NCBI GenBank assembly: GCA_033391075.1
Contig: JAWPMV010000001.1
Coordinates: 5,394,001 to 5,458,000 of the forward strand
Source of the DNA: Bacteroidia bacterium
GTDB taxonomy: Bacteria > Bacteroidota > Bacteroidia > J057
DNA length: 64,000 nt
Direction of reading: 5' to 3'
Each line of letters opens with the position of its first letter. Position 1 is the stretch's first letter. Of the stretch, positions 30,058 to 62,857 are shown piece after piece. The notes beneath the pieces are model-generated. The model worked only from the letters and a program-made list of their open reading frames with translations. It had not been told where the DNA came from and did no database searches. The translations under genes and the position numbers were made by a program.

Positions 30058-30479
30058 GCTATTGAAATCTTGGGGTCAAACAAATCTGCTAACAGTGAGA
30101 CAAGTGAATCGAAATCAAGCGGTTTCTCTAAAAAATCTGTAGCTCCCAAAGCCAGCATATCTTCTTTCATGGATGCTAAAAGGGCTCCAGAGAAAATGTA
30201 TATAGGGCAAAGGATTTCTGTTTGGGATTTCAGGTAGTTCAATACATCTTTGCCTGACATCCCAGACATATTGTAGTCTATAAAAAAGCTCTTTATAGGT
30301 GGAGATCCTGTGTTAGCAGATTCCCAGTATTCGTGAAAAGCTTCTCCAGACTCAAAGGCAAGAACCTTTGAATCCTTAAATAGCTGCTTTAGCGCCACTT
30401 CCATTAAATGTAAGTCTCCCAGGTTATCGTCAATGAGAACAAAGCAAGATGGGGAGCATTCTGGCTTCTGAAAACTCAT
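30054..30479 (-). CDS. Single-domain response regulator
   Basis: A 141-residue receiver-only protein. VLIDDN (acidic pocket), phospho-acceptor aspartate in FFIDYNMSGMSG, the serine in YIFSGA, and the EKPLD lysine are all present. With no output domain it probably passes phosphate in a relay or binds a partner protein. It lies 217 bases downstream of a second receiver gene and the large PAS kinase, all on the same strand, so these may belong together. Tail-to-tail overlap of four bases with the endonuclease gene. Confidence 0.88.
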   Translation of the reverse strand: MSFQKPECSPSCFVLIDDNLGDLHLMEVALKQLFKDSKVLAFESGEAFHEYWESANTGSPPIKSFFIDYNMSGMSGKDVLNYLKSQTEILCPIYIFSGALLASMKEDMLALGATDFLEKPLDFDSLVSLLADLFDPKISIA

Positions 30480-30696: not shown

Positions 30697-31119
30697 TTAA
30701 GTTTTAGGAAGAATATTGAAAAGGCCCCAGAATAGTCCAAGAATCTTAACAGCCTTGGAGAATTCTTCCTGTTGTACAGGTTTGGTAACAAAAGCATTTA
30801 CCCCCAATTCATAGCATCGGTTAATTTCAGGATTTTCCTGAGAGGAGGTCAGGATGACAATCGGGAAGTTACCATAGGCTTTATCCTTTCCTCTAATCTC
30901 TTCCAATGCCTCCAAACCAGACATTACGGGCATTTTGAGATCGAGAATAACCAGGCATATATTTCCGGAACCGTTTTCATCCAGGTAATCGATAAATTCT
31001 TCTCCATTTTCCAGCCAGATGATTTCATTTAAAAGAGGAATTTCTTTCAGGGTTTTCTGGGTCATTTCTGCATCCAATTCATCATCTTCTACCAGAAGTA
31101 TTTTAGGGATTGTACTCAT
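30697..31119 (-). CDS. Rcp1-like single-domain response regulator
   Basis: A 140-residue receiver. LLVEDDELDAEM, phospho-acceptor LVILDLKMPVMSG, IVILTSS, and VTKPV give all conserved positions. The extra loop between the first helix and the acceptor (LENGEEFIDYLDENG) matches the Rcp1 type, partners of phytochrome-like and PAS kinases. It starts 23 bases after the stop of the six-PAS histidine kinase and is very likely its phospho-acceptor. No DNA-binding domain. Confidence 0.9.
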   Translation of the reverse strand: MSTIPKILLVEDDELDAEMTQKTLKEIPLLNEIIWLENGEEFIDYLDENGSGNICLVILDLKMPVMSGLEALEEIRGKDKAYGNFPIVILTSSQENPEINRCYELGVNAFVTKPVQQEEFSKAVKILGLFWGLFNILPKT

Positions 31120-34100: not shown

Positions 34101-34193
34101 ATTCTTCGCATAATTCAGAAGTTGACTCTCTGGGTTTTGAAGACCTTTGTCAAGGGGCAAGGAATACGGACTCTGCTTTTCTCTTTGGCTCAA
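31143..34193 (-). CDS. Cytosolic histidine kinase with six tandem PAS domains
   Basis: A 1016-residue kinase without membrane segments. An initial PAS domain is at about 35-155. Five further PAS/PAC units of about 125 residues follow to about 790, sharing the pattern GE-x5-GTFVWD-x8-AS, then a HPED motif and KWLR/RWLR with DITEE. HisKA (YTVSHDLRAP, His806) and HATPase_c (NLLSNAVKF, DNGAGF, GTGIGLSNV) end the protein. The start is TTG at 34193; no ATG is available nearby upstream. The repeat units are clearly related, which points to internal duplication. It phosphorylates a receiver protein, probably that encoded 23 bases downstream. Ligands are unknown. Confidence 0.92.
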   Translation of the reverse strand: MSQREKQSPYSLPLDKGLQNPESQLLNYAKNFSPDEPLFKTLVDLLPFGLTLSSSSRNLIYANKTFGNLLGYGQEELAGMDWSKLTYEEDRQKNLTTYQQLIEGKTETFEFEKRYWHKEGHLVWCRLQVTIVEDKKTAKKLTLALIEDISAKKQLEKEIERQKVILQMGEQAAGIGTFIWNTETNEIEASSEVFRIYELDEESTNPQNLFERAMSLTHPDDVELLRKDIMESAREKKLIHTNYRIQFPDGRIKWLKTTPGAFMDEVWMLRTVQDISEEMKKSALLLHQKEMIQMGEGVARIGTIIWDIHSWDLEISDGIYQIFGIEIPTEKVKESFDAFFRYVNPEDLPKVIARLKQISESKEGGPLEFRINTKDGKEKWIKSYKGKFLDERRRLTTLQDITEEVKKTNLLSRQKEIIEIGERISGLGTFVWDVESREVEASPGLYQLAGLEEGSLDPKALMAKLLSIVHPEDKEALANNMNLIAEKKTTSPIEFRVILETGQVKWLRTSDGKFLNEKEKLGTMLDITEEKHRTEQLEQQGRIIRSGELTANVGTFVWDTESKEINASQGFYKCFGLEEEEIGNENLFTRTWSMIHPEDVDKMRARNEQILRGELPCTIDFRIIIPDGEIRWLRNYPGEFITAKLKLGTIQDISEEKARTELLERQEELIRLGEVVGNIGVDIWNLETGEFYYSPHLLQMFEIDPEEVTDTNLLELLSLRFHPEDKKVIDVFTQKIVKNPPEQVEMKHRILTKKGGVKWVQVISQPYTSPNMRITINKDITDFVHKSEKLLEAQKEMEQLLYTVSHDLRAPLRHVSSYAGMVKKATDGKLDTEESRYLSNVIKASARLGTMIDELLQFFRNRNIEMMQVPIDLEEITRRTIELFSSDTESRGIEWKIGPIPKVKGDPLMLEKVMLNLLSNAVKFTAKTDAACIEITAREMGEMLLIQVVDNGAGFKMKYIDKLFAVFQRLHNRSDFEGTGIGLSNVKRIIERHGGSIWAEGKVDKGAKFYFTLPLA

Positions 34194-35018: not shown

Positions 35019-36317
35019 CTAAAGCTTCATCTCGAATACAGCTCCCTTCTGCCCGGCAGATTTGAGGGAGAAGTGTATTCTGTGTTTTAATAAAATTTCA
35101 CGGGTCAGGGTTAGTCCAATACCCTGGCCATTTTTTTTGCTGCTGTAGAAAGGAGAAAAGACCTTTTGGGCAAGTTCCTCCGAAATTCCCTGTCCGTCGT
35201 CTTCAATACGGAGGATTACAGGTTCTGCCTCCAACTCAATCTTGATATTACCTTTGCTCTCTATGGCTTCAATGGCATTCTTGATCAGGTTGATCATTAC
35301 CTGTTCCATCTGTTTTACATCTACTTCTACCCAAACTTCCTGATCCGGCAGATGGCTGTGGAACTCAATTTCCTTGATACCCTTCTGAAAACTCATAAAG
35401 TTTATCATCCTTTCTATCAGAATCCTCAGATCAATTCTTTCTAAAATCGGTTCAGGTAGTTTCACCACTTTAGCAAAATTGACCATAAAATCATTGAGCT
35501 TATCATTTCTTTGGTGGGCAATCTTCAGAATTTCCTGATATTCTTCTCTATCCTCTTCAGGAATATGTTTCGCATAGGTATCTATAGATTCTAATATAGA
35601 ATTGATGGGACCGATGGAATTATTGACTTCATGTGCCATCATGCGGATCACCTTGCCATAGGCTGCTTTCTCAATCTCAAGTTTCTCTGCCGTCAACTCC
35701 TCAATCATGATGAAATAATTGGCAAAACCTCTGTCAATAAACTGTGCTTTATGGCATTTAAAAGTTTCAACCCCATTCATCGCTACTACCTCCGTCTTAC
35801 CCGCATCCAGCTCACTGATCTTTCTCATTAGTGGATGATCTATCTCCACCGTTTTTTTCCCCAGGATCGCCTTGGAGCCTAAGCCTAAATGAGCCTCGGC
35901 TATCGGATTGTAACTGGAAATCTCTCCTTTCAGATTCAGAATGATAATGCCGGTTGGGGAGTTTTGAATCAACTTTTCCAGAAAAAAGTGTTTTTGGGCC
36001 TTTTGGGTTCTTTCCTCTCTCAATTCATCAATCATGCTGTTATAGACCGCGATGAGTTGATCCATATCTTTTTGTCCCACTCCCTGAAACTTCACCGTAA
36101 AATCTCTTTCTTTTATCGCATAGGTTCCTCGATTGATCAATTCAATGGGATTCACCAGGGATTGATAAAGTCGATAAGAGAAATACAAAGAAATCAGTAC
36201 GATCACTTCCGATGCTATAAACAACCACTTAAAATCCTCAAATATGAAATAGGACATCACCAGGGAAATCCCATGGATGAGGCCTATAAAGAGGATATAT
36301 TTGATGCGGAGCTTCAT
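35019..36317 (-). CDS. NtrB/NtrY-like membrane histidine kinase
   Basis: A 432-residue kinase. Two membrane helices at about 5-26 and 30-50 enclose almost no periplasmic loop, so it probably senses a signal in the membrane or cytosol. A HAMP-like stretch (NPIELINRGTYAI) and a PAS domain (about 110-210) precede the HisKA motif MMAHEVNNSIGPINS with His229, then HATPase_c with LIKNAIEAI, DDGQGI and GQGIGLTLTREIL. It is downstream of the sigma-54 activator gene, separated by about 110 bases containing a palindromic repeat. The pair probably forms one two-component system controlling the efflux genes. Confidence 0.92.
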   Translation of the reverse strand: MKLRIKYILFIGLIHGISLVMSYFIFEDFKWLFIASEVIVLISLYFSYRLYQSLVNPIELINRGTYAIKERDFTVKFQGVGQKDMDQLIAVYNSMIDELREERTQKAQKHFFLEKLIQNSPTGIIILNLKGEISSYNPIAEAHLGLGSKAILGKKTVEIDHPLMRKISELDAGKTEVVAMNGVETFKCHKAQFIDRGFANYFIMIEELTAEKLEIEKAAYGKVIRMMAHEVNNSIGPINSILESIDTYAKHIPEEDREEYQEILKIAHQRNDKLNDFMVNFAKVVKLPEPILERIDLRILIERMINFMSFQKGIKEIEFHSHLPDQEVWVEVDVKQMEQVMINLIKNAIEAIESKGNIKIELEAEPVILRIEDDGQGISEELAQKVFSPFYSSKKNGQGIGLTLTREILLKHRIHFSLKSAGQKGAVFEMKL

Positions 36318-36330
36318 AAGACGCAGTAGC

Positions 36331-36428
36331 GTTTTTGGGTGTTAGTGTTTTAGCGTGTTTGGGTTATGTGAAGGACAAAATAATAAACCCTGGCTCCCTA
36401 ACACACAAACACTCTAACACATTTTTTT
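36331..36428. repeat. Imperfect palindromic repeat, GTGTTAG family (copy A)
   Basis: GGGTGTTAGTGTTTT at 36337-36351 is mirrored by AAACACTCTAACAC at 36407-36420 followed by a T tract. The same words occur at 52435-52511. It lies between the activator and kinase genes and may end part of the transcription. Confidence 0.6.
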
Positions 36429-37788
36429 ACTCATGCGGTATTTGATACTTCTCTAACCTCCGATACAAAGCATTTCTACTCAAGCCCAGAGCCTGCGCTA
36501 CCTTACTAATCTTACCACTATGATAGGTCATGGCCTTGAGAATCATTTCTTTTTCCATTTCCTCCAGGGACATGCTGCCAACTTCTGGTAGACCGCCATC
36601 ATTTTTTCTGCGAGCAGGGGCTCCCAGTTGATCTTTGAAATCATCAATTTCCAGATGGTCTTCCGGACTCATGAGGACGGTCCGCTCTACCAGATTTTTG
36701 AGCTGACGAATATTTCCGGGGAAAGAATACTGTTCCAGCCAACTCATTGCAGCTTCGCTCACCTGCAAACCGGGCCTTTGGTAAATTTGGCGAAGATTTT
36801 TCAGGTAGTATTCTACCAGTAAGGGGATATCAGAGGCTCGCTCGCGGAGGGCAGGAAGTCGGATAGTAATAAGGTTGATTCGATAGAAAAGGTCTTCCCG
36901 AAACATCCCTTCCGAAACCATTTCAGCCAAATTTCGATTGGTGGCACTGATAATACGCACATTTACTCTTTGGTTTACACTGCTCCCTAACACCTCAAAG
37001 CTCCGATCTTGCAGGACCCGTAGTAGTTTTACCTGACTCGCCAAATCCAGTTCTCCTATCTCATCCAAAAAGATGGTGCCTCCATCTGCCATTTCAAATC
37101 GACCTTTGCGATCATAGCGGGCATCCGTAAACGCCCCTTTCTTATGGCCAAAAAGTTCACTTTCGAATAAAGTGGTTGAAATCCCTCCCAAATTGACTTT
37201 TACAAAGGCTTCGCTCTGTCTTTTGCTGTTTTGATGTACGGCTTCAGCTATCAGTTCTTTACCTGTTCCACTTTCTCCAAGAATTAAAATAGAAGCTTCC
37301 GTATTAGCTACGCGCCCTATGGTTTCCAGGATCTTCATAAAGCCTGGATCCTCCCCGACAATATGACCAAAGTCATATTTTTCATCCAGCTCCTTCCGAC
37401 TGCTGCTTTGTGCCTGAAATCCTTTCAATGCCAGGGCCGTTTTAATCGAAGCCAGCATTTGATCATTGGACCAGGGCTTGCTGATAAAATCCCTGGCACC
37501 TGCCCGCATGCCTGCTATCGCCAATTCGATGGTCGCCCAACCGGTAATCAGGATCACGGGCATTGAGGGATCAAATGCCAGTATCTTTTTGAGCAGCGCC
37601 ATCCCTTCTTCTCCGCTGGTTTCCAGAGAGAAATTCATATCCAGGATAATCAGATCCACCTTATTTTCCCTGATAAAATCCAGGGCTGTATGGGGCTTTT
37701 TTACGGCCGCACAATCCCAGCCCTGGTTTTTCAGGAGTAATTTTACGGAGGCTAAAACCGCCTGGTCATCATCTATGATAAGGATCAT
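36427..37788 (-). CDS. NtrC-family sigma-54-dependent response regulator
   Basis: From ATG 37788 the product has 453 residues; an earlier in-frame ATG at 37824 would overlap the permease gene and add 12 non-homologous residues. The receiver has Asp6-8 and phospho-acceptor Asp50. The AAA+ domain has Walker A GESGTGKE (171-178), the sigma-54 contact loop as GAFTDA (218-223) rather than GAFTGA, and Walker B TIFLDE (238-243). A Fis-type helix-turn-helix ends the protein (SKVAQALGLSRNALYRRLEKY). It activates sigma-54 promoters; a likely target is the promoter in front of its own operon at 43644-43660. Confidence 0.93.
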   Translation of the reverse strand: MILIIDDDQAVLASVKLLLKNQGWDCAAVKKPHTALDFIRENKVDLIILDMNFSLETSGEEGMALLKKILAFDPSMPVILITGWATIELAIAGMRAGARDFISKPWSNDQMLASIKTALALKGFQAQSSSRKELDEKYDFGHIVGEDPGFMKILETIGRVANTEASILILGESGTGKELIAEAVHQNSKRQSEAFVKVNLGGISTTLFESELFGHKKGAFTDARYDRKGRFEMADGGTIFLDEIGELDLASQVKLLRVLQDRSFEVLGSSVNQRVNVRIISATNRNLAEMVSEGMFREDLFYRINLITIRLPALRERASDIPLLVEYYLKNLRQIYQRPGLQVSEAAMSWLEQYSFPGNIRQLKNLVERTVLMSPEDHLEIDDFKDQLGAPARRKNDGGLPEVGSMSLEEMEKEMILKAMTYHSGKISKVAQALGLSRNALYRRLEKYQIPHE

Positions 37789-37804: not shown

Positions 37805-38977
37805 TTATTCTTCTCGCAAGGCAATGGCAGGATGCAGTTCGGCAGCCTGAGTACTTGGAATCAAAGCGCAAACAAAGACCAACAGATAAATGCAGATCGC
37901 AGCAAAAACGATCGCTAAAATATAGGTTCCGGCATTTACTCCAAATACATCCAATAAAGGGAATTGAGATGCAAAGAAAATCCCAAGAATCAAGCTAATA
38001 CTGGCCAGCACCATGATCTCCAAAATAAATTGAATGGTGATCTCTGACTTGCTGGATCCCATCGCCCGTCTGACACCTATCTCCTGCTTTCTGCGACTGA
38101 TGTTTTGCCAAAGCACACCAAACAATCCCAGTGCGACATTAAATATGAGGAATGCTCCGATAATTCCCAATATTAACATAGGGATAAATGAAACCAGGAG
38201 GAAATTTGACCTCATTTCATCTATATATCGAATCTCCATTGAATAGTCGGGTGCAATCTGATGTAGATCTTTCATCAATTTCGCTTCAAAAGCTGCATCA
38301 GCTCCTTCATTCACCTTTATCAATAAATTTGAAAGGAGACGATCCTCATTTTTCCTGATAAAAAATCCATATCCACTTTCCATAATTCCTCCTCTGTATC
38401 GATAATCGGAGACTACCCCTATAATTTCATGGTAATCGTTTTCGGTTTCTCCGTATTGCAGTTTTTGCCCTACAGCCGAACCCTCCGGAAAAAGTTCTTC
38501 AGCCATATTCTCGGTAATAATAAAGGGAGATTTGGAGTTGATCTCGTCCTGTTCCTCAAACCAGCGCCCATCCAGCATTTCTATCTCCATGGTTTGATCA
38601 AAATTATCGTCAACTACAAAGCGCTGAGCAAGAATATTTGCATTGGCTCTACTCAAATCTGAGGTATTGGAGGTTCCAGAGAAAGGAATGTTATTCTGCG
38701 ACCAGCTAAATTCTTTAATCTCCGAATATCTTCTCATGGTCTCATCTATCTGATCGTCGATCTGCATAGAAGCCTCTTTTTCCATTCCTTCGCGATTAAA
38801 GGTAATGGCCCATACATCCTCATATTCATATCCTAAAGGACTGAAATATTCCTGCAAATTGAAGATAGCAAAACTAAATACCAGAAAGAGGATCATAAAG
38901 GAGAAGAAGATTTCTACAAACAATCCGAGGTGTTTGCCTCTCTGGTTCCAAATGAGTTTAAATGCCTGACGTATCAT
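37805..38977 (-). CDS. ABC transporter permease (MacB/FtsX family), second copy
   Basis: A 390-residue permease with four membrane helices in the FtsX arrangement: one near 18-42 and three at about 265-385. A large periplasmic domain separates them (MacB_PCD type), with ITENMAEELFPEGSAVGQKL and IGVVSDYRYRGG. The motif RKQEIGVRRAMGSSKSEI, which couples to the ATPase, precedes the last helices. It overlaps the first permease gene by four bases. Together with the adaptor and TolC it should form a tripartite export machine that pushes periplasmic substrates, such as peptides or lipids, out of the cell. Confidence 0.9.
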   Translation of the reverse strand: MIRQAFKLIWNQRGKHLGLFVEIFFSFMILFLVFSFAIFNLQEYFSPLGYEYEDVWAITFNREGMEKEASMQIDDQIDETMRRYSEIKEFSWSQNNIPFSGTSNTSDLSRANANILAQRFVVDDNFDQTMEIEMLDGRWFEEQDEINSKSPFIITENMAEELFPEGSAVGQKLQYGETENDYHEIIGVVSDYRYRGGIMESGYGFFIRKNEDRLLSNLLIKVNEGADAAFEAKLMKDLHQIAPDYSMEIRYIDEMRSNFLLVSFIPMLILGIIGAFLIFNVALGLFGVLWQNISRRKQEIGVRRAMGSSKSEITIQFILEIMVLASISLILGIFFASQFPLLDVFGVNAGTYILAIVFAAICIYLLVFVCALIPSTQAAELHPAIALREE

Positions 38978-40230
38978 GAGTTTAATCCTTTTAAAGCGTT
39001 AACAACCTGAATTTTTGACATCCTGTAAGCGGGGAGCACACCAGAAAGTAGCCCAAATACCAGACAGAGGAATATTGCCAATAGAAAAACATTGAATTGG
39101 AGTCCCAATTCTATATGAGTGATAAGCTCTGAGTTCTCAATGATCTCGAGGACACCCAGTGCCAGTAGAAGACCCAGCCCTCCCCCAATCAGGGTCACTA
39201 TAATATTTTCAACAATAAACTGCCAGGCAAGGGTCATAGAATTGGCACCAAAAGCTTTACGAACCCCTATCTCTGAGGATCTTTCACTGATCCTGCTGGA
39301 ATTGAGGTTGATAAGGTTGAGGGCGGGTAAAAGCATGAACATCAACATGGCTAGCGAAAGAAAAAGAGTCAGTAAGCCCATTTGAGGTTTTTGCCCGATC
39401 ACAAAAGCGGAAGATATCCGCTCAATTTTACTCATAGCAAAAGAGCTAATGATATCGTAATCCTGCTTCCATCCTTTACTAGCTGCAGGCACTTCCAGCC
39501 GAGCTACCAAATCTTTGTACTCTTCTTTGATTGTGGGAATATCGGATGAACTTTCTCCCTGAAAGATGACCGTAAATTGCCCAATAAGATCCGGGTTTTG
39601 CAGGTGATGGGCTGCAAGCCCCAGAGGTACATAGATATCACTATACTGATAAATAGCTGCCTCAGAGACATTTTCTACAACTCCCAGCACTTTATACTCG
39701 ATATTATCCGTTTCTATGCTTTTGCCCAGAGCAGAAACCCCTTCTCCAAAATAGGAATCACGGGTAGCACGAGTAATAACAGCGACTCTGTCTTTTTCTT
39801 TTATATGCTCTTCATTGAAAGCTTTACCTTCGATGAAACTATAGCTATGCATTCCCCAGTAATCTGCATCTGTATAATTTAGGTGCAGGGTGATCTTTCT
39901 ATCCCCCACAAAGGAATTGGTGCTTTTTCCATTGGAAATAATTGAGATTCCTTTGGGGCTTTTCATCTTCCGGATAAAGTTTTCATACAAATAATACCCA
40001 ACTCCTCCGTTCCAACCCGAACCCTCTCCATCTTCCTGAGAAACGGTGGCAACATAGATCAAGTGATCATCCGGACCTACTGGATAATGCTTGCCGACGA
40101 TCTGATCAAAAAGGGTAGCCAGTACCAGGAGGATGCCAATGGTAAGGCTGATCCCAAAAAGGCTTACGAAGGTGAAGAACTTATTTCTTGCCAAAACCTT
40201 CCAGGCGATCTTTATATAATTACGTATCAT
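38974..40230 (-). CDS. ABC transporter permease (MacB/FtsX family), first copy
   Basis: A 418-residue permease, similar in layout to the next gene product: helix one at about 20-42, a periplasmic MacB_PCD domain, then three helices at about 285-410. The coupling motif is RSSEIGVRKAFGANSMTL. Two different permeases encoded side by side suggest a heterodimer rather than the homodimer of E. coli MacB. It lies 21 bases after the ATPase gene and overlaps the following permease gene by four bases. Confidence 0.9.
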   Translation of the reverse strand: MIRNYIKIAWKVLARNKFFTFVSLFGISLTIGILLVLATLFDQIVGKHYPVGPDDHLIYVATVSQEDGEGSGWNGGVGYYLYENFIRKMKSPKGISIISNGKSTNSFVGDRKITLHLNYTDADYWGMHSYSFIEGKAFNEEHIKEKDRVAVITRATRDSYFGEGVSALGKSIETDNIEYKVLGVVENVSEAAIYQYSDIYVPLGLAAHHLQNPDLIGQFTVIFQGESSSDIPTIKEEYKDLVARLEVPAASKGWKQDYDIISSFAMSKIERISSAFVIGQKPQMGLLTLFLSLAMLMFMLLPALNLINLNSSRISERSSEIGVRKAFGANSMTLAWQFIVENIIVTLIGGGLGLLLALGVLEIIENSELITHIELGLQFNVFLLAIFLCLVFGLLSGVLPAYRMSKIQVVNALKGLNS

Positions 40231-40251: not shown

Positions 40252-40917
40252 TTATACAACCTGACTTCCATCAAATAAGCGAACCAAACGATGCGTGCGC
40301 ATAGCCATACTTTCGTCATGCGTTACCATTACGATGGTCGTTTCATCTTCCTCATTAAGTTTGGTAAGGATATCCATGACCTCATTTCCCATAACACTAT
40401 CCAGGTTTCCCGTTGGCTCATCCGCCAATATGATAGAAGGATTACCTACAATAGCTCTGGCTATGGCTACTCTTTGTCTCTGTCCTCCAGAAAGCTGGCT
40501 GGGAAAGTGTTGCATGCGGTTGCTCAAGCCCACTTTGTTCAGGGCTTCTATAGCTCTCCGTTTTCTCTCTTTAGCCGACATTTTCCGATACAAAAGAGGT
40601 AATTCTACATTGTCTATTACCTGGAGATCATTGATCAGGTGGTAGCTTTGGAAAATGAAACCAATATTCTGGTTGCGAAAGCGGGCCAGTTCTTTGTCGG
40701 TATAATCCCCAAAGTTTTCTCCGGCGATACTCAAATCTCCCTCGCTGGGCTCGTCCAGTAAGCCCATGATATTGAGCAAGGTACTTTTGCCGCATCCTGA
40801 GGGTCCCATGACAGAAAGGAACTCTCCTTTGTCAACTTTCAGATTGATCTGATTCAGTGCTACAGTTTCGATGGTCCGTGTTTGGTAAACCTTTTCGATG
40901 TTGGATAATGCAATCAT
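40252..40917 (-). CDS. ABC transporter ATP-binding protein (MacB/LolD-like)
   Basis: A 221-residue ATPase, the usual length for the family. Walker A GPSGCGKST at 38-46, Q-loop FQSYHLI, signature LSGGQ at 142-146, Walker B IILADEP at 162-168 and the H-loop VMVTHD are intact. The LolD/MacB subfamily powers extrusion without transporting substrate through the membrane itself. The gene is four bases after the TolC gene and precedes both permeases. Confidence 0.95.
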   Translation of the reverse strand: MIALSNIEKVYQTRTIETVALNQINLKVDKGEFLSVMGPSGCGKSTLLNIMGLLDEPSEGDLSIAGENFGDYTDKELARFRNQNIGFIFQSYHLINDLQVIDNVELPLLYRKMSAKERKRRAIEALNKVGLSNRMQHFPSQLSGGQRQRVAIARAIVGNPSIILADEPTGNLDSVMGNEVMDILTKLNEEDETTIVMVTHDESMAMRTHRLVRLFDGSQVV

Positions 40918-40921
40918 ATCT

Positions 40922-42370
40922 TTAGTGTGTTATGTGCTGATTTAAAGTAAAGTCAAATAAGGTTAATTCGCGAATTCGATAATAACTCCTCCAGTAATCC
41001 CAAAGCGATTGGACATAGTCTCGTTTTGCCTGGTCTTTTTCCTGTAGGGCTATGCTAAGGTCTGTGATACTAAGTTTATTGATCAGGAATCTATCCTGAG
41101 CGATCTGGTAGCGCATTTGAGCCAATTCATCTACTTCTTTATTGAGCTCTACTTGCATGGCGTACCTTCTCAACAGGGTCAATTCAGTCAGGAGGATTTG
41201 GTCGAAATTGATGCTATCCTGCTCAATCTCATAGAGCACCAATTGGCGATTGGCTTTTGCAGTCTCTACCCGGGATTTTGCTCTCCCCCAGTCCATGATT
41301 GGCAGAGAGAATTCCAGGGAGATGGTTTGCTGCTCGATCGGATTTCTATAAGCTTCTGAAATTCGCTTATCACTTTTATTGAATCCGATACTTCCTACCA
41401 GGTTTGCAGAGAATCCTCTCGATCCTTTCGCCTCTGCAATTCCCATTTCTGCTTGCAGGGCTCTCCGCTTGAAAGCAATAGAATTAGGTCGGTTTTTATG
41501 GGCCTGCTGTAAGGCTTCTTCTGTAGAAATTTCGAGTAAGGGGATTTGCTCAGGCAATTGTAGAAAGAGAGAGACATCTCCCCGGTAGTTGATGAATGAA
41601 CCCAACTGAAGGTTGGCGGTCTCCATATCCTGCTCCGCAAGTGCCACAGATTTGGCCGCCTTGAGTTTTTCCAGTTTGAGCTGAAGCACATCATTCCTGG
41701 ATGCTTTGCCCATCTCAAATTTTTCTTCCGTTATCTTAAAAATCGTATCCGTATTCCGAAGGTTTACTTTGGCGATTTCATAATCGATTTGAGCGATCAA
41801 CTGTAGGAAAAAGTAATCCAGAACTTCTACGGCAATATTTTCCATATTGGCGTGAAACTCCTGCTGGGATTCCTGATAGCGTAGGGGTTCAATTTTTTTA
41901 TCCCATTTTAAAGGATTAAAAGCAAATAAAGGCTGCATCAAGCCCAATTGAAAAGGCGTTGCATTGTAGAGAGAGTTATCGGTTGTAAAATCATCAAAGC
42001 GCTGCAATTCTGTCCCGACAAAAACGGTAGCACCAGTAGCCAGTATAGGCTGACTTAAAGAGACCTGGGTACTGATATTGCTTTGGGAAATGGATTGGAA
42101 GAGAATACTTCCATCCGGCTGCAATACTTCCTGAGAAATTCTTGAAAAGCCTGGCAGACGACCACTCAGGGTCACCTGCGGCTTTAAATTGGCTTGATAA
42201 GACTTCCACTCCCAATAACTCGTTGTTTTCAAGGTCGCGGCTTTGCGAGCGGCTATGGCTTGAGACTGTCCCATGAGGATAATCTCTTGCAGGCTGTGGC
42301 TTCGCTGTGCCCAAATCCCGGAAGAGAAGAGCATAGTAAAAGCGAGGCTTATGAGAATACTTCTTTTCAT
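40922..42370 (-). CDS. TolC-family outer-membrane efflux protein
   Basis: A 482-residue protein with signal peptide residues 1-21 (SGIWAQ). Two OEP repeats of about 190 residues are visible, rich in long helices (LQLKLEKLKAAKSVALAEQDME and its counterpart around 410-460) and with beta strands between (PLFAFNP, ISLEFSLPIMDWG). Trimers form the outer-membrane channel and periplasmic tunnel that docks with the adaptor. It is encoded two bases after the adaptor and four before the ATPase, which fixes it in this efflux unit. Confidence 0.92.
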   Translation of the reverse strand: MKRSILISLAFTMLFSSGIWAQRSHSLQEIILMGQSQAIAARKAATLKTTSYWEWKSYQANLKPQVTLSGRLPGFSRISQEVLQPDGSILFQSISQSNISTQVSLSQPILATGATVFVGTELQRFDDFTTDNSLYNATPFQLGLMQPLFAFNPLKWDKKIEPLRYQESQQEFHANMENIAVEVLDYFFLQLIAQIDYEIAKVNLRNTDTIFKITEEKFEMGKASRNDVLQLKLEKLKAAKSVALAEQDMETANLQLGSFINYRGDVSLFLQLPEQIPLLEISTEEALQQAHKNRPNSIAFKRRALQAEMGIAEAKGSRGFSANLVGSIGFNKSDKRISEAYRNPIEQQTISLEFSLPIMDWGRAKSRVETAKANRQLVLYEIEQDSINFDQILLTELTLLRRYAMQVELNKEVDELAQMRYQIAQDRFLINKLSITDLSIALQEKDQAKRDYVQSLWDYWRSYYRIRELTLFDFTLNQHITH

Positions 42371-42372
42371 AA

Positions 42373-43620
42373 CTAATCTATGCTTATTTCTCTGCGGTTT
42401 TCGTAACGAGACATATCACTGATGATGACTTTCTCTCCAGGGTTCAGGTTTTTCTCGATCTCGACAAAATCAAAGCTGTTGAGGCCGACGAGTATATCTC
42501 TTCTGATCGCCTTATTTCCTTCCACCACATATACATATTTGGTACTGCGCCCATTGAAAGCCGGACCATTTTCTACTCGTACAACATTTGATTTTGAAGC
42601 GGTAATCACATAAACATCTACTTTCATATTGGGGCGAAGGAGCTGATGATCTCTTTCTTCCAATTCTACTTCGAAAGTCATGATATTATTCTCAACACTG
42701 GGACGGATATTGGCGATCCTGCCAGGTGTTCTTTCTTCATCATTTATCTCAATAATTACCTCCATACCCCTCTGCAATCGATCCATAAACACATCTGAGC
42801 AATTGGCAATGACCTTATAGCTGCTGAGATCTGCGACTCGCGCCAGCATTTCTCCTTCCCGAATCGTAGTTCCGATATTTTCATTTGCCCAGGTCAGTAT
42901 CCCTTCACGGGAAGCCACGATATCTGCACGATCCAGTTTTTCCTTTATGGTCTTTACATTATTGCTTTGGATGTTGTATTGAATCTTCAGATCCTCCAGA
43001 CTGGCCTCGGTTTGCTGTTGTTCGATGCTGAGATCAAACTCCAGTTTTTGCTTTTCCAGATTGGCGATCTTGAGCTTAGTCTCAATCAGACTTACCTCCT
43101 CACGCGTTCCCCCACCGATCTTTTCCAGTCGTTTTGCGTCTTCCAGTTCCGCTTCCAGCTGAGCGATATTTAGCGCCTGAGTTGAATCCGTGATTTTGAG
43201 ATTGAATAGGCTCTTTTTCAATTCGAGGCGGGTCTTCTTAATGCTGTTTGCATTCAGTTGTAATTCCTGCATCTGTTTCTCATAATCCAGCTGTGCAAAG
43301 GATTTGTCCAAAGCGAGAATTGACTGCCCGGGCTTGATCTCCGTTCCCAGAGGAATTAAGACCTCCTTGATATTGGCTTGAATGGGACTGGAGATGACTT
43401 CTTCGAAGGCAGGACTTACCAGTCCACTGGCAGTGAGGGTATGGGCTACCTTTCCGATTTCGGCAGTGGAGATCAGAATTCGGTCTCCATCTATGCTCAA
43501 GGCTAAGCCTCTTCGAGTCAGGTAATAGGCCAGACCAATAAAGGCCAGGATGCCTATAGCGGTCAAAATACGCTTGGCCCACTGTTGTTGTATACGTTCC
43601 TTTGAAATGGCTCTGTCCAT
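42373..43620 (-). CDS. HlyD-family periplasmic adaptor
   Basis: A 415-residue membrane-fusion protein. One N-terminal helix (about 17-35) anchors it. A beta-barrel/lipoyl half starts at VISSPIQANIKEVLIPLG, a helical hairpin of about 115-230 has heptad leucines, and the second lipoyl half follows (IVASREGILTWANENIGTTIREG). The membrane-proximal domain ends with ALNSFD-type residues at about 390. It links the permeases to TolC. As first gene of the operon it lies 33 bases from a near-consensus sigma-54 promoter. Confidence 0.92.
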   Translation of the reverse strand: MDRAISKERIQQQWAKRILTAIGILAFIGLAYYLTRRGLALSIDGDRILISTAEIGKVAHTLTASGLVSPAFEEVISSPIQANIKEVLIPLGTEIKPGQSILALDKSFAQLDYEKQMQELQLNANSIKKTRLELKKSLFNLKITDSTQALNIAQLEAELEDAKRLEKIGGGTREEVSLIETKLKIANLEKQKLEFDLSIEQQQTEASLEDLKIQYNIQSNNVKTIKEKLDRADIVASREGILTWANENIGTTIREGEMLARVADLSSYKVIANCSDVFMDRLQRGMEVIIEINDEERTPGRIANIRPSVENNIMTFEVELEERDHQLLRPNMKVDVYVITASKSNVVRVENGPAFNGRSTKYVYVVEGNKAIRRDILVGLNSFDFVEIEKNLNPGEKVIISDMSRYENRREISID

Positions 43621-43643
43621 GGGAATTTATTTTCCATAGACGA

Positions 43644-43660
43644 ATCCAAGGGGCGTGCCA
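43644..43660 (-). promoter_or_regulatory. Sigma-54 (-24/-12) promoter of the efflux operon
   Basis: Read on the minus strand the sequence is TGGCACG-CCCC-TTGGA, one base from the consensus TGGCACG-N4-TTGCA. Transcription would start near 43634, about 14 bases before the ATG at 43620. The operon encodes its own NtrC-type activator. Confidence 0.7.
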
Positions 43661-43714
43661 TAAAATAAACTACTGACTTTCAGCCGGTTAACAAGAGCCC
43701 TTAGAGAGTCAAAT

Positions 43715-43747
43715 GTTCGATATCGAACCCTCTGTTCGGTTTTGAAG
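43715..43747. promoter_or_regulatory. Tandem palindromic enhancer-like sites
   Basis: GTTCGATATCGAAC at 43715-43728 is a perfect 14-base palindrome. A second, imperfect copy GTTCGGTTTTGAAG lies at 43734-43747, matching ten of fourteen positions. The centres are 19 bases apart and about 88 and 107 bases upstream of the predicted sigma-54 start, a position suitable for an NtrC-family regulator. Confidence 0.6.
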
Positions 43748-43828
43748 CAAAAGCGGACAAGAAGTTTTCTGGTATTCTGGTGTTCTTGTGGGGAGATGGT
43801 AAGAAACTGAAACGCTAACTCCAACAAT

Positions 43829-43936
43829 CCTGTCATTGCGAGCTCTGATTCGGAGCGAAGCAATCCCCTTAAATCAAATAATGCTTTCGAAGTCAAGGAG
43901 ATTGCTTTGCCCTTTATAAGGACTCGCAATGACAGG
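43829..43936. repeat. TGTCATTGCGAG palindromic repeat (copy 1)
   Basis: A perfect 14-base terminal inverted repeat CCTGTCATTGCGAG / CTCGCAATGACAGG bounds 108 bases. The inner AGCAATCCCC / GGAGATTGCT words are partly complementary. The same ends recur at 62754-62857. It sits downstream of the lipoprotein gene and may also act as a terminator. Confidence 0.8.
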
Positions 43937-43978
43937 CTGTATGGTCAAACGCCAATACACCAAGACGTTTTTAATTAT

Positions 43979-45813: not shown

Positions 45814-48800
45814 ATGTCGGCACAAAGAGATTCTCAACCCCCAAAGACGCGGTTTAGCCTCAGTCCCAAGCAAAAAACCACTTTTCAGACCACTACAGCT
45901 GGAGCGGTTTTATTGTGTGCCTTGCTTTTCAATTATGCATCTAGCGAACAACCGCTTGATGACGTCTTTTTCTCCACCTCCGTTACCCAGGAAATCGATA
46001 TCTGTATAGATCAGGGTACGATTGAGCTGGAATACCTCAATACTTCAGGTTTTGCATTGACAGGTCAGGAAATCACCGTAGAGTTTCCTTCTGGCATCAC
46101 CTATGTAGCCGGAAGTTTAACAGATACAAGCGGCTATAATGTGGTAGAGGAAGACATATCAGATCTGGCAAATCCCATATTTTCTATGGATGATTTGGGG
46201 GATGGGGAAACCCTTCCTTTCTCCATAAATTTTGAGGCAGATCCAGCAGCAATGGCTTACATTCTCGCCGGCAACACTCCAGATAATGTAATAAAGCTTG
46301 TAACAAATGAAGGGATAGCGGAAAGTAGTTCGGGTCCCTACAATGTTTTATATCCTTCCATAAGTATTGTAAATCTGAGCCCCAGTTCTCAATCTGTAGT
46401 CTCCGGCGATACTGCTAGCAGGTCTATGACCATTATCAATGCCGGCAATGGGCGATTGAGCAGCTTTTTTGTAACAGATATTCATGGAGAGGGCATTGAA
46501 TTGGTCAGCAGTAATTTTGGAACCATCAATGCCAGTAAAGACACCATTTTCTTTGGAGCCAGCGATTTTCAACAGTTTGGTGATAATGACGAATATTTTG
46601 ATACCAATGAATCTTTCAGTTTTGAAGAAAATCTGGTAGCTACGGGCTGTAGTGATGCTACGGTTTCCTCTGTAATAAGTGCTATATGGGGATGTAATGG
46701 GCAAAACACCACCAATTCTACTACCAATGGGCACGTAAATGTCAGCCTCAAAATGCCTAGTCTCTCTTTGAGTGCGACCAGCAATCTCGAATCCTGCTTT
46801 GGAGCAGGCGTTCCAAATAATCAGGAAATAGAAATAGAAAATACGGGTCAGGGAATCGCCATGGATGTAGAAGTGGAAATCTATAAATCTTCCGGTGGCT
46901 CCTTTGATGAAGACCTATTCTCTCGCATAGATACTGCCAGCATTACCTATAAAGTAGGAGCAAATGGAAGTCCTATTCATATTTCACCTACTTCCGTAGT
47001 GAATAACAGGACCGATGGCAATTACTCCTGTTTAGGCAGCAATCCAATTGGCAAAGTAGTGCTTGACCTTCCCAATATCGATCCGGATGAAACCATTTTT
47101 ATCAATTGGGATACCTATAGTTGTTGTGTAAATGTTTGTAGCAGTGAGGAGAATACGGGCTGGAAATACAAAGTGAGTTACACAGATGCCTGCGGCCAAA
47201 GTCCGACTTCCTCCACCAAAAAAGGAGAGGATACTCGCTCGGGTACCATGAGCGTTCTTCCGGAAACCCCCTCTGATATTCAGGATGGACAAACCGAAAG
47301 TTTTGACTTTACCATATCCAGCCATACCAATGAATATCCGGAAGGAAATGGTGCACATTATCTGGTAGAATTTAGCATTCCTCAAGGATTGAGCTGGAGT
47401 GGGAATTCAAGTGATTTAACTTTCACCAGTGGTACCAATGTCTGGACAGGCCAGGACATCAATTATAATAGCAGCACGCGTCTGCTTGAGGTAAAATACT
47501 TTTTACCCGAAGCCTTTGATATTCCCAAATCGGAACTCTCGGTTAATCTGACCGGAGACTGCACCGGAATAAGCAATAGCACAGAAGACATCGCCCTTGG
47601 ATTAGATATTTCTTACGTTCCTGATACAACTTGTACGAGTGATTGCAGCCTTCCATTCTTATGCAATGAAATTGCTACGGTTGCCCTTCACTGCCCCGGT
47701 CCATGTGATGAAGGAATGGCCTTTAAGCAATATGATATTGCCAGGATCAGTTATGGAGCCCCTGACGATAATCAGGATGGGAAAGCAGATGGAAGTGGGT
47801 CTGTTGACCTTGCAAGTATCAAAACCAATCGCGCTATGGTTGGTGATACCTTAAGAGGAACATTTACAGGAGTCGTCAAAACTTCAGGGAGCCATCCTTC
47901 CTGGGCTCAGGGATATGCAGATTCTGAAATAGAAAAAGGAACAAATCTTAGTTCAGCCGGAGCCAGTTTAAAAGTATATGATGCTTCTGCAGGAAGCTAT
48001 ATTACCTGTAATGGAGTGAGTGTAAACAGTAGCGACAATGGAAGTCTGCGAACCTTTACGTATGACTTTAGTCCCTCCACCCTTTCCAGCGGATGTAGTG
48101 ATTTCAATTCTTTCACTTTTGGCGAAGGGGACTCCGTTTGGTTATATACCGATTATAAAGTTACGGGAAATATAGGAGGAGCAATCGAGGAAATAGATAT
48201 TGATAATAATTATTATGTCAGTGATGTATCCAGTCCTACTTCTTCCTCAGACAAATATCAATGCGATACCTGGGGAGGTCGTTTTACCCTGATTGGATAC
48301 TACTTTGAAAATAGTACGGGTACCAATGTAACCATCAAAGGATGTTCAAAAGTTATTCAGCAGAATTTCAAGTTGAGCATAGGAGATTGCTGTTCCAATT
48401 TTGAGGGTGGAAATCTCTTCCCTTATGAATATCGGAACTGGGCGCATGTAAAGCAGGCTTTCACGGTTATCCCGGATAACTACGAAGTTCTGCAGATGTA
48501 TGTCAAGCAGAAAAGGACCAAATCCACCAATACCAGTGCGACCCAGACTGTCAATGATATTGTTCCGACTTACAATAGCAATGACACCCTGATTTTTGAT
48601 CTGGAACAGTACTATTCAGAATTTGGCGGTTCCTTATTGTACTCTGATGATGGATTCTCAGGTACACTCTATATCGAAATCGCACCTAGTTGTGATGTGA
48701 CGCCAAGTACCTATCAGGATATGCCCTGGAAGTTTACCTTCGTTGAATCGGATATGCTAAGTGGTGCTGAAACGGATTGGTACACTTCTGATCCGGATCG

Positions 48801-51800
48801 GGTAAGATGGACACCTCCATCTTTAGATTTATCCTCCCCCAACCCGACCATCGACGGAATCGGAAAAACAGTAACCTGGACCCTTGATATCGAGAACACT
48901 TCTTCTTCTTCAAATTCAGATAATGCCTGGTTCCACATCAAAAATCCAAGTGGTGAGGTAAATATTGAATATGTGATTGATGCGAGCAGTGGGGATACCC
49001 TGAGCCTGAGTGGAGACATCTACCAGGTAGGATCTATCAACAAAGGGAATACAAGCAGTTATTATATTACCGCTTCCTATTCAGCCTGTGGCAATGACAA
49101 TATCGAAGTGTATTCAGGCTATGAATGTTCGGCTTATCCGGATTCCTTCGCAAATTTCACCTGCTCCTATTCTCAAATGAGTCTCTACATGGAGCCCAAA
49201 ACCGCTGAACTTCAAATGACCCTCAGTGGTCAATACACAGGAGATGAGTGTGGGAAAGAAATAGAAGTTACCCTGGAATTGGCCAGTGTACAGATTGCGC
49301 ATGTGGATAGCATGAAAGTAGAAGTACAACTGCCATCTTCCGGAAGCATGAGCCTCAAAGCCTCTTCTTCCAGTTTGAAATACCCCCTATCCGGATCTTA
49401 TTTCAACTTTGCTGATCCGACAGTCAGCAGCAATAAGTTTGAGATCAACACCTGGGAAATCAATTCAACCATTGCAGAGAATGGCATGCCAGGGGTAATG
49501 GATCTGGATAATAATCGAGTCAGCATTAGATTCTACCTAGAAGTAGGGAACTCTTATCAACCGGGGGAATTAGTCCAAATAAGCGCCTATTCAGAATCCC
49601 CTTGTGATCAGGACCTGGCTACCATAAACCTGGCTTATGATCCTAGTATCAAATTGACCAAACCAGAAGCCACCGGGCTCTCAGATGATCAGGGCCATAG
49701 TTGGAGTGCATCCTGGGCAGATTACGATAATGATGGATATGAAGACCTCTATGTTACTGAGTTCATGCACTGGAAAGGAAATTATCTATACAGAAATAAG
49801 GGAGATGGTAGCTTCGAAAGAATCACTGCCGGAGATATGGTAAATGATAAAGGAGCGGCTGCAGGAAGTAGCTGGGGCGATTATGACAATGATGGCGATT
49901 TGGACCTATTTGTTTCCAATAATGTCCGGGCAGTCAATCACCTCTACCAAAACAATGGGGACGGCAGCTTCACCCGAGTAGATGCCGGAGATGTATCAGA
50001 CTATGGAGGCTATTGCCACAATGCGGCCTGGATCGATTATGACAATGATGGCTGGCTGGATCTATTTGTCTCGGATTATATGCCGACCAAATTCAATATG
50101 CTATATAAAAACAATGGCGACGGCACCTTTACGACCCAAACAGGAACAGAGCTTTCTTTGGAAGCCAAATTCTCTATGGGAGCGACCTGGGCAGATTATG
50201 ATATGGATGGCTTATTGGATGTTTTTGTTCCCAATGGACGTAATGACAACAATTCCCTATATCACAATGATGGAAATGGTAAGTTCACCAAAGTAACAGA
50301 TGGAGATATTGTAAATGATGGAGGAAATTCGACGGGAAGTAGTTGGGCTGATTTTGACAATGATGGAGATATGGACCTCTATGTGACCAATGCCAGTAAT
50401 CAGAAGAATTTCCTTTATGTGAATAATGGAGACGGAAGTTTTACCAAAAACACTTCTTCCGTCATTGTATCCGAACAAGGACATTCGCATGGATCGGGTT
50501 GGTTGGATTTGGAGAATGATGGAGACCTTGACCTCATCGTAGGTAATGATGCAGATAATCCGAATTTCCTCTATACCAATAATGGGGATGGGACTTTCAC
50601 CAAGCAAGCAAATACCTTAACAGAGGATGAGGAAAACAGTATGGGTCTGGCTTTTGCCGACGCAGACAATGATGGAGATATGGATATTTTCGTGGCGAAT
50701 AAAAGCAATCAGACCAATTCCTTCTATTTAAATTCCAGTGGCCAATGTAACAATTGGAAGTGCTTTATTTTACAGGGGGAAAGGTCTAATAAATCCGCCA
50801 TTGGAGCACGTATTCGAGTAAAAGCAACCATCGATGGGCAGGTTGTATGGCAAACACGTGAAATCAGTTCCCAATCAGGAGGTGGTTCCAGTAGTCAAAG
50901 TACCCTGAGAGCCTATTTTGGACTGGGAGATGCTACGAATATTGATTCAGTGGTCATTGATTGGCCTTCTGGTTTTGAGCAACATCTCACCAATGTTTAC
51001 ACCAATGATTGCCAGACCATTGTAGAAGAAGAGGGTGCAGAGATTTGTGGAACAGTCTTCTATGATATGAATGGAAATTGTACACAAGATCCGGGCGAAA
51101 ATGGAGTTCCTAATGTATTGCTCGAAATTCTTCCCGGACCGAAGTACGTTACCACCAATAATTTAGGAGAATACAAGATTTATCGTCAGTACGGAACCTA
51201 TACCGTAAAAATAGCACAAGCTGAAGGATGGAGCATGGCAAATTCCTGTGATGATGAATATAACATCGTCTATGAAAGTGCTAACCGTACTTCTTCCAAT
51301 TCCTTTTGTGGTAAAGACTTTGCCATGGAACCGGATTGTGCTAAGCCAGACCTCGTAAGTTATCTATCAAGTACAGCCTTGCGTAGAGGCTTCAGAAATA
51401 GCTATGCCATCTCTTACCTCAATAGAGGGAGCCTGGCAGCCTATGATGTAAATCTGTCCGTAGAGTTCGACAATGAGATTATTCCATTGAATGCGGACAC
51501 AGACTGGAATTCGATGGTAGTCGGAGACAGTACTACGACATATTCTTGGACCCTGGATACTTTAAGTCCCATGCAACAGGCTTCCATCATGATCACAGAC
51601 TCTGTATCTACGGAGGCCGAAATGGGTAAAATGACTCGAGTGAAGTCAAACTTCAGCATGGCTCAGGAGGATTGTGATCCGACCAATAATTCAAATGTAG
51701 ATTATAATGAAGTCGTAGGCTCGATTGATCCCAACGACATTCTGGTATTCCCAAGTGGGAGCATTCTGCATAAAGATACCCTGACCTATAAAATCAGGTT

Positions 51801-52413
51801 CCAGAATGTAGGGACTAAATTCGCGCAAAGGGTACTCATACTCGATACGCTCTCAGAGCATTTCGACCTAAGTAGCCTGCATGTGGAGACCGCTAGCCAT
51901 CCGTATAGATATGAGTTATCAGAAGATAGAGTATTGAGCTTCATCTTTGATCACATCTATTTACCGGACAGTGTTTCTAATGAGCCTAAGAGTCATGGCT
52001 TTGTTCAGTACAAAATCATGGTAGATGAATTGACGCCAATGAAAAGCAAGATCACCAATCGGGCAGCCATACAGTTCGACTACAATGAGTTTATCATCAC
52101 TAATACGGTCAAGAATCGGGTATTTGATACCAAGAGCCTTGCCTTTGACAATAAACTCAAAATGGAATTGGCACCCAATCCCATGGTAACAGAATCCTTT
52201 ATCCGCATAGTTTCTACCGAGGATGCTGAAACCCGGGTCAATATTGTGGCCTTGGAAATGTTTGACATCACCGGCAAGCGAGTCAAATACATTTCTCGCC
52301 TCAATCACCAGGAGGTACGCATTGATGCCAACAACCTGACCTCAGGCGTCTACATCCTCAAAGTCAGAGACCAGAATGGATTGAGCCATTCGGAGAAGTT
52401 GGTGGTTGAGTAA
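45814..52413 (+). CDS. Giant T9SS surface protein with FG-GAP, UnbV and SdrD-like domains
   Basis: A 2199-residue secreted protein with an extended signal region (hydrophobic core about 28-43). Residues 45-1290 hold many beta domains of the DUF11/conserved-repeat type with cysteine pairs. Seven FG-GAP/VCBS units with calcium loops (DYDNDGDLDLFV pattern) fill about 1300-1635. An ASPIC/UnbV domain follows at about 1655-1735 (GARIRVKATIDGQVVWQTRE), then an SdrD B-like domain (CGTVFYDMNGNCTQDPGENG, 1743-1839), two further beta domains and a T9SS sorting domain at the end (LAPNPMVTES, SGVYILKVRD). It is probably anchored or released at the surface and may bind ligands or adhere. No catalytic domain is recognised. 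Confidence 0.92.
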   Translation: MSAQRDSQPPKTRFSLSPKQKTTFQTTTAGAVLLCALLFNYASSEQPLDDVFFSTSVTQEIDICIDQGTIELEYLNTSGFALTGQEITVEFPSGITYVAGSLTDTSGYNVVEEDISDLANPIFSMDDLGDGETLPFSINFEADPAAMAYILAGNTPDNVIKLVTNEGIAESSSGPYNVLYPSISIVNLSPSSQSVVSGDTASRSMTIINAGNGRLSSFFVTDIHGEGIELVSSNFGTINASKDTIFFGASDFQQFGDNDEYFDTNESFSFEENLVATGCSDATVSSVISAIWGCNGQNTTNSTTNGHVNVSLKMPSLSLSATSNLESCFGAGVPNNQEIEIENTGQGIAMDVEVEIYKSSGGSFDEDLFSRIDTASITYKVGANGSPIHISPTSVVNNRTDGNYSCLGSNPIGKVVLDLPNIDPDETIFINWDTYSCCVNVCSSEENTGWKYKVSYTDACGQSPTSSTKKGEDTRSGTMSVLPETPSDIQDGQTESFDFTISSHTNEYPEGNGAHYLVEFSIPQGLSWSGNSSDLTFTSGTNVWTGQDINYNSSTRLLEVKYFLPEAFDIPKSELSVNLTGDCTGISNSTEDIALGLDISYVPDTTCTSDCSLPFLCNEIATVALHCPGPCDEGMAFKQYDIARISYGAPDDNQDGKADGSGSVDLASIKTNRAMVGDTLRGTFTGVVKTSGSHPSWAQGYADSEIEKGTNLSSAGASLKVYDASAGSYITCNGVSVNSSDNGSLRTFTYDFSPSTLSSGCSDFNSFTFGEGDSVWLYTDYKVTGNIGGAIEEIDIDNNYYVSDVSSPTSSSDKYQCDTWGGRFTLIGYYFENSTGTNVTIKGCSKVIQQNFKLSIGDCCSNFEGGNLFPYEYRNWAHVKQAFTVIPDNYEVLQMYVKQKRTKSTNTSATQTVNDIVPTYNSNDTLIFDLEQYYSEFGGSLLYSDDGFSGTLYIEIAPSCDVTPSTYQDMPWKFTFVESDMLSGAETDWYTSDPDRVRWTPPSLDLSSPNPTIDGIGKTVTWTLDIENTSSSSNSDNAWFHIKNPSGEVNIEYVIDASSGDTLSLSGDIYQVGSINKGNTSSYYITASYSACGNDNIEVYSGYECSAYPDSFANFTCSYSQMSLYMEPKTAELQMTLSGQYTGDECGKEIEVTLELASVQIAHVDSMKVEVQLPSSGSMSLKASSSSLKYPLSGSYFNFADPTVSSNKFEINTWEINSTIAENGMPGVMDLDNNRVSIRFYLEVGNSYQPGELVQISAYSESPCDQDLATINLAYDPSIKLTKPEATGLSDDQGHSWSASWADYDNDGYEDLYVTEFMHWKGNYLYRNKGDGSFERITAGDMVNDKGAAAGSSWGDYDNDGDLDLFVSNNVRAVNHLYQNNGDGSFTRVDAGDVSDYGGYCHNAAWIDYDNDGWLDLFVSDYMPTKFNMLYKNNGDGTFTTQTGTELSLEAKFSMGATWADYDMDGLLDVFVPNGRNDNNSLYHNDGNGKFTKVTDGDIVNDGGNSTGSSWADFDNDGDMDLYVTNASNQKNFLYVNNGDGSFTKNTSSVIVSEQGHSHGSGWLDLENDGDLDLIVGNDADNPNFLYTNNGDGTFTKQANTLTEDEENSMGLAFADADNDGDMDIFVANKSNQTNSFYLNSSGQCNNWKCFILQGERSNKSAIGARIRVKATIDGQVVWQTREISSQSGGGSSSQSTLRAYFGLGDATNIDSVVIDWPSGFEQHLTNVYTNDCQTIVEEEGAEICGTVFYDMNGNCTQDPGENGVPNVLLEILPGPKYVTTNNLGEYKIYRQYGTYTVKIAQAEGWSMANSCDDEYNIVYESANRTSSNSFCGKDFAMEPDCAKPDLVSYLSSTALRRGFRNSYAISYLNRGSLAAYDVNLSVEFDNEIIPLNADTDWNSMVVGDSTTTYSWTLDTLSPMQQASIMITDSVSTEAEMGKMTRVKSNFSMAQEDCDPTNNSNVDYNEVVGSIDPNDILVFPSGSILHKDTLTYKIRFQNVGTKFAQRVLILDTLSEHFDLSSLHVETASHPYRYELSEDRVLSFIFDHIYLPDSVSNEPKSHGFVQYKIMVDELTPMKSKITNRAAIQFDYNEFIITNTVKNRVFDTKSLAFDNKLKMELAPNPMVTESFIRIVSTEDAETRVNIVALEMFDITGKRVKYISRLNHQEVRIDANNLTSGVYILKVRDQNGLSHSEKLVVE

Positions 52414-62732: not shown

Positions 62733-62753
62733 AATTAAGGGACCAAACACACT

Positions 62754-62857
62754 TGTCATTGCGAGCCCTTGACCAGGGCGCGGCAATCCCCTTCATTCAA
62801 AATAGCTATTTGTATTCAAGGGGATTGCTTCGCCTGTATCACAGGCTCGCAATGACA
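62754..62857. repeat. TGTCATTGCGAGC palindromic repeat (copy 2)
   Basis: TGTCATTGCGAGC at 62754-62766 mirrors GCTCGCAATGACA at 62845-62857. Inside, GCAATCCCCTT and AAGGGGATTGC are exact complements, so the whole 104 bases could fold into one long stem. Confidence 0.85.

Follow-up and report, generated by a model that had tools for sequence, protein, structure and literature searches.

The window, that is, the whole stretch of 64,000 nucleotides that was analysed, comes from a 9.49-Mb genome of the Bacteroidota and carries on its minus strand seven tightly packed genes, running from 43620 to 35019, which are the following:

42373..43620, minus strand: gene 1, a MacA/HlyD-type periplasmic adaptor of 415 amino acids (Pfam HlyD_D23/HlyD_3; NCBIfam TIGR01730 above its cut-off; profile match to the solved MacA)
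40922..42370, minus strand: gene 2, a TolC-type outer-membrane efflux protein of 482 amino acids (Pfam OEP)
40252..40917, minus strand: gene 3, an ABC ATPase of the MacB/LolD/DarD group, 221 amino acids (domain and model matches)
38974..40230, minus strand: gene 4, a MacB/FtsX-type permease of 418 amino acids (Pfam MacB_PCD and FtsX; best PDB match, the solved MacB)
37805..38977, minus strand: gene 5, a second MacB/FtsX-type permease, 390 amino acids (domain and model matches)
36427..37788, minus strand: gene 6, an NtrC-type response regulator with receiver, AAA+ domain containing GAFTDA, and Fis-type HTH (probable start, the ATG at 37788)
35019..36317, minus strand: gene 7, a histidine kinase in which about 5 residues separate the two transmembrane helices, and which also has HAMP-like and PAS regions, the H-box HEVNN and an ATPase domain

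Since the gene that follows the kinase is convergent, the operon ends with the kinase. A first-pass annotation had placed the regulator sixth and the kinase seventh in this operon, with which the gene order and the domain matches agree. The exporter set is complete for the MacAB-TolC type—adaptor, MacB-type permease, ATPase, and TolC channel—and in that sense resembles MacA-MacB-TolC, which can nevertheless be considered a distant relative only, because here the ATPase and the permease are encoded by separate, unfused genes and the permeases are two different ones. The nearest named models for the transporter were those of darobactin export, lipoprotein export, and macrolide export, all of them scoring below their cut-offs, so that the proposal of lipophilic or peptide compounds as the exported substrate is a guess.

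Other elements of the window deserve a brief description. Beyond the kinase, 31143-34193 encodes another, large kinase, of 1016 amino acids with about six PAS_3-type repeats, which is followed by two small proteins resembling receivers (30697-31119 and 30054-30479). On the plus strand, a 2199-amino-acid open frame (45814-52413) adjoins a gene for a small outer-membrane beta-barrel. In addition, an inverted repeat measuring about 100-115 bp is present in two copies—one at 43824-43940, between genes and ahead of the operon, and the other at about 62750-62860—whose ends, GTCATTGCGAG, lie at an equal distance from each other in both copies; it has the appearance of a small mobile element or a REP-like one.

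Between the operon and that repeat we distinguished four features, here listed from the first gene outwards:

43645..43660, minus strand: predicted -24/-12 element, TGGCAC-GCCCC-TTGGA (TGGCACGCCCCTTGGA), with a predicted +1 at about 43634
43666..43690, minus strand: 25-bp dyad TAA-N4-YTGA-N3-TCAR-N4-TTA (TAACCGGCTGAAAGTCAGTAGTTTA, which fits without a mismatch), with its centre 18 bp ahead of the T of the -24 motif
43715..43728, minus strand: proximal predicted activator box GTTCGATATCGAAC, a perfect palindrome (16-bp family consensus TGTNCG-N4-CGNACA)
43734..43747, minus strand: distal, degenerate predicted activator box, CTTCAAAACCGAAC in the minus-strand reading (from the sequence and the distal box in a profile of 78 promoters)

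The element TGGCACGCCCCTTGGA is one base away from TGGCAC-N5-TTGC. In the genome a single rpoN was found through its Sigma54_DBD domain (E 1e-49), along with 11 full-length sigma-54 activators. Transcription would be sigma-54-dependent and start at about 43634. Taken alone, the element is not striking: the TGGCACGNNNNTTGSW pattern had one match in the 9.49-Mb genome, as did a control pattern, and therefore a comparison with relatives was needed.

The proximal box GTTCGATATCGAAC is unique in the 9.49-Mb genome even when one mismatch is allowed. Its centre is 19 bp from that of the distal site, which pairs at only 3 of 7 positions; and the distances of 88 and 107 bp upstream of the predicted start that the first-pass annotation had given for these boxes agree with ours. 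That annotation had also described two 14-base palindromes, a description that holds for 43715-43728, whereas 43734-43747 is better regarded as a degenerate distal box. In the window, the proximal box is followed by a gap of 54 bp and then by TGGCAC-N5-TTGGA. A strict pattern combining box and promoter had a single match in the source genome, namely this operon, and a looser version added just one tRNA-like chance match. Counts of the combined pattern across 395 genomes of the class were dropped as a measure of regulon size, most of those matches being chance occurrences within genes.

A search of 22 genomes of the same order revealed no ortholog besides the window's own. The operon being thus patchy within its order, we extended the search to the class, and gathered from Bacteroidia and GTDB genomes the gene-1 orthologs, with identities of 29-55%, at 105 loci, the nearest named ones belonging to Saprospiraceae/Lewinella metagenome bins. 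Most of these loci retain the seven-gene order. In the 220 bp that precede this gene, which amount to 23.1 kb over the 105 loci, the exact GTNCG-N4-CGNAC occurred 85 times versus 22 in the remaining 1.63 Mb of these loci, an enrichment of about 270-fold directly upstream of the operon. The TGG[CT]A motif was present upstream of the first gene in all 105 loci, and in 82 of them was located 60-63 bp from the box centre, although spacing had not been a selection criterion; the gap from box to promoter was of 52-55 bp in most promoters. The degenerate distal box likewise recurs in the profile of 78 promoters at the matching offset of 19 bp. Moreover, when a combined matrix of boxes, dyad, and promoter—built from the 77 other non-redundant promoters, with the window left out—was slid along both strands, it peaked at 64.7 bits at exactly 43660 on the minus strand, while of the independent sites in the window the highest scored 3.4. 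The promoter layout is conserved upstream of orthologous seven-gene operons in many families of Bacteroidia and dozens of genera. The first-pass annotation had staked its reading on the persistence of the palindromes and the -24/-12 motif in related genomes, and both are kept, with near-fixed spacing, in about 100 loci; at the level of sequence comparison, this result confirms that its observation was real and far above chance.

The family profile also enables an evaluation of what else these sequences might be. The proximal box reads TGTNCG-ATAT-CGNACA and is followed by a T-rich stretch, which tract—together with the Dyadobacter-type loci, where the palindrome is extended and then followed by a run of T, and with the co-orientation of the upstream gene in 44 of 75 loci—would be compatible with the palindrome serving the upstream gene as an intrinsic terminator instead of being an activator site. 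In the window, though, no T run follows the palindrome and a terminator scan makes no call there, the upstream gene is divergent in the remaining 31 of the 75 loci, and the near-fixed distance from box to promoter and the second box 19 bp away also speak against a terminator. We accordingly reject that explanation for the window, where we give it almost no credence, while in some relatives, with a T run after the box, the palindrome may have a terminator role.

With respect to the promoter proper, the profile of 78 non-redundant promoters displayed TGGCA[C/T] and then TTG at positions 11-13, with T11 in 98% and G13 in 89%; the next base varies, being G in 43%, A in 24%, and C in 20%. The first-pass annotation had considered the site to be one base off consensus, and the match is indeed at the place it gave; the deviating -12 base, however, is the norm of the family rather than the sign of a weak copy. 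This noncanonical -12, along with the need for a basal supply of regulator before activation, could be invoked in favour of transcription mainly from a housekeeping promoter of the sigma-A type (-33/-7), with the TGGCAC/TTGG block being incidental. Yet few bases ahead of the operon are as well conserved as those of the -24 motif and the TTG, and the 78-promoter profile contains no conserved -33/-7 motif, so that we regard a predominantly housekeeping transcription as exceedingly improbable. By contrast, the reading of 43640-43750 as a sigma-54 promoter plus a two-dimer enhancer, whose activator would most likely be the operon's own gene-6 regulator, appears to us highly probable, even if a -12 that lacks the canonical C and the existence in the genome of two related circuits with similar boxes are among the points against it.

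The 25-bp dyad between the boxes and the promoter was absent from the first-pass account. In the family profile the element extends from -30 to -6 before the T of the -24 motif, with the centre of the dyad at 17-19 bp before that T, and 67 of the 78 promoters matched its 14 positions with 3 mismatches or fewer (the window with none), as against about 1.6 in shuffled sequences. Because the consensus had been derived from the very 78 promoters that were scored, we performed two held-out tests. The first one made use of 18 paralogous promoters, chosen by boxes and -24 alone and mostly preceding other ABC/FtsX transporter genes: in 16 of them the dyad reached the 8% level of the shuffles or better, and 15 of these have it where it was expected. 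For the second, a dyad matrix was trained on only the lineages with TGTGCG boxes, and this matrix recognised 32 of the 37 promoters of the other lineages, the window being one of them and its dyad obtaining the lowest p attainable by the test. An IHF-like YAANNNNTTGATW was found within one mismatch in 46 of the 78 promoters (9 in shuffles), the element being nonetheless a dyad and not a single asymmetric WATCAANNNNTTR, which dyad resembles two overlapping, opposed halves of the IHF consensus, each of its halves matching that consensus. A bend of the IHF type is a classical feature of the DNA that separates an enhancer from its sigma-54 promoter; the usual IHF site, however, is not a dyad, and only one gene of the HU/IHF family was found in the source genome. 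In the literature, which we covered in part, we encountered no earlier description of this dyad.

The gene-6 regulator possesses all the domains to be expected from an activator of such a promoter: a receiver, the Sigma54_activat AAA+ domain, and a Fis-type HTH. The loop that contacts sigma-54, however, is GAFTDA instead of GAFTGA in 86 of 89 orthologous regulators, the family including three GAFTGA members; and in the source genome GAFTDA is carried by 3 of the 11 activators—the one of this operon plus those of two other loci, L028 and L029—the other eight being without it. GAFTDA is a known and presumably functional variant, listed among the GAFTGA variants held to keep activity (PMC4641369). 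The GAFTGA loop has in turn been linked to the sensing of DNA near -12 (PMC7057263).

As to which regulator would recognise the boxes, residue 451 of the recognition helix (open-frame numbering) is F in orthologous regulators that go with TGTGCG half-sites and S, N, or A in those that go with TGT[C/T]CG. On the regulator tree this residue changes once, from S/N to F, and the box changes from TGT[C/T]CG to TGTGCG on that same single branch; the box changes once more in another part of the tree. The co-change of helix and box is thus one event on the tree—one independent pair—and does not constitute statistically independent evidence; many other alignment columns also track the box change. For both reasons we downgraded this covariation from a proof of binding to a supportive observation. 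A complementary case is that of a genome of the F group (G301), in which the F-type regulator goes with TGTGCG boxes, while a second, Q-type transporter regulator adjoins a TGTCCG promoter. Considered jointly, the co-change and this case favour the local gene-6 regulator as the probable binder of the boxes.

The first-pass annotation had further envisaged promoter, enhancers, exporter, and regulator as one self-contained circuit, which view is sustained by the location of the regulator and the kinase in the operon that they would control and by the uniqueness of the strict pattern, but needs qualification in view of L028 (about 671-680 kb) and L029 (about 2191-2201 kb). Each of these loci of the same genome contains an adaptor-ABC-FtsX operon next to divergently oriented genes for a regulator and a kinase, and both have paired TGTCCG-like boxes and TGG[CT]A promoters. 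Because these two paralogous units use related boxes, cross-talk is possible, and any of the three regulators might activate the others' operons. A stronger version would have the L028 or the L029 regulator as the main activator of this sigma-54 promoter, with the three efflux units forming one cross-wired network, and the GAFTDA loop common to precisely these three regulators is in keeping with that idea. Nevertheless, the boxes differ, being GTTCG at this operon as opposed to GTCCG or degenerate at L028 and L029; the strict box-plus-promoter pattern belongs to this operon's promoter alone; and in relatives it is the recognition helix of the local regulator that changes on the same branch as the local box. 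We consequently deem a paralogous main activator unlikely and retain the gene-6 regulator as the preferred candidate.

In other Bacteroidia, at the loci L217-L234, boxes plus a -24 motif mostly precede other transporter genes of the FtsX/MacB-type ABC class, arrays of lone permeases included, which distribution suggests a wider family of box/-24 transporter circuits in the class. A separate observation concerns another sigma-54 activator (L026:9237-10619), whose N-terminus (HLAKVIIIGAGKGGTALLELF) resembles a nucleotide-binding fold and not a receiver, and would be an unusual sensor domain.

The kinase encoded by gene 7 has, as judged by eye, a pair of hydrophobic helices at its N-terminus, with about 5 residues between them, and no periplasmic sensor domain; the loop between the helices is likewise very short in all the kinase orthologs inspected in the same manner. 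The Bce/Lia-type modules of Firmicutes combine an intramembrane-sensing kinase with an FtsX-type ABC transporter, their regulators being of the OmpR or LuxR type. The present kinase would be comparable to theirs in its two helices with almost no extracytoplasmic loop and in being encoded together with an FtsX-type ABC transporter, and differs in its association with a sigma-54 activator and a tripartite Gram-negative exporter. By that analogy, the signal may come from the exporter or the membrane, with the cytoplasmic PAS domain as another possible sensing site.

We therefore envisage that envelope stress or the state of the transporter would trigger the kinase, which enzyme, on receiving its signal inside the membrane or directly from the transporter, would phosphorylate the regulator. 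Dimers of the latter, on the boxes that lie 88 and 107 bp before +1, would assemble into a ring, and the DNA between boxes and promoter would be bent, probably by a protein bound to the 25-bp dyad, so that the AAA+ ring could remodel the sigma-54 RNA polymerase parked on TGGCAC-N5-TTGGA. A single transcript would then supply the MacAB-TolC-like exporter together with more regulator and kinase—a positive autoregulation that would end once export had cleared the signal.

In its general architecture the circuit is like those of the group I bacterial enhancer-binding proteins NtrC, ZraR/ZraS, and AtoC/AtoS: a receiver-AAA+-Fis HTH regulator with its kinase, paired predicted dimer sites about 100 bp upstream, a putative bending-type element between these and the promoter, and a -24/-12 promoter. 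In contrast to those systems, here the regulator and the kinase are the last genes of the controlled operon, GAFTDA replaces GAFTGA, the C of -12 is usually lost, and the intervening element is a 25-bp dyad. The parts belong to known kinds; what sets the operon apart as a variant is the conservation of the dyad, together with the relaxed -12 and a regulator of the GAFTDA subfamily.

The Bacteroidota literature, within our partial coverage, offered only two related papers when searched for the circuit, its boxes, or the operon: a transcription-start map of Flavobacterium psychrophilum, whose sigma-54 promoters are typical, and a study that predicted computationally that sigma-54 controls FtsX-like ABC permeases (COG0577) of Bacteroidia (PLoS One 2025, PMC12316311). 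The portion of the latter study considered here matches our results in target genes and promoter class, contains neither the activator sites nor the operon circuit nor the dyad, and states that its own method misses promoters far from consensus—precisely the type to which most of the present promoters, being far from consensus at -12, belong.

A bolder generalisation, which we put forward tentatively and consider rather doubtful, is that of a distinct class of sigma-54 circuits for MacB/FtsX-type exporters in Bacteroidia, which class would combine GAFTDA activators, a relaxed -12, a dedicated and hitherto undescribed dyad-binding protein that bends the DNA or co-activates, and a transporter that serves as the sensor for a kinase devoid of an outside domain. 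In a phylum where sigma-54 activator sites have apparently been hardly mapped, the present family provides, in dozens of genera, a full and readable promoter code—two boxes, dyad, and -24/-12—in which regulator and box can be matched by sequence. Furthermore, the co-occurrence of a natural variant of the loop, GAFTDA, with a natural variant of the -12 element makes the coupling between loop and -12 open to test.
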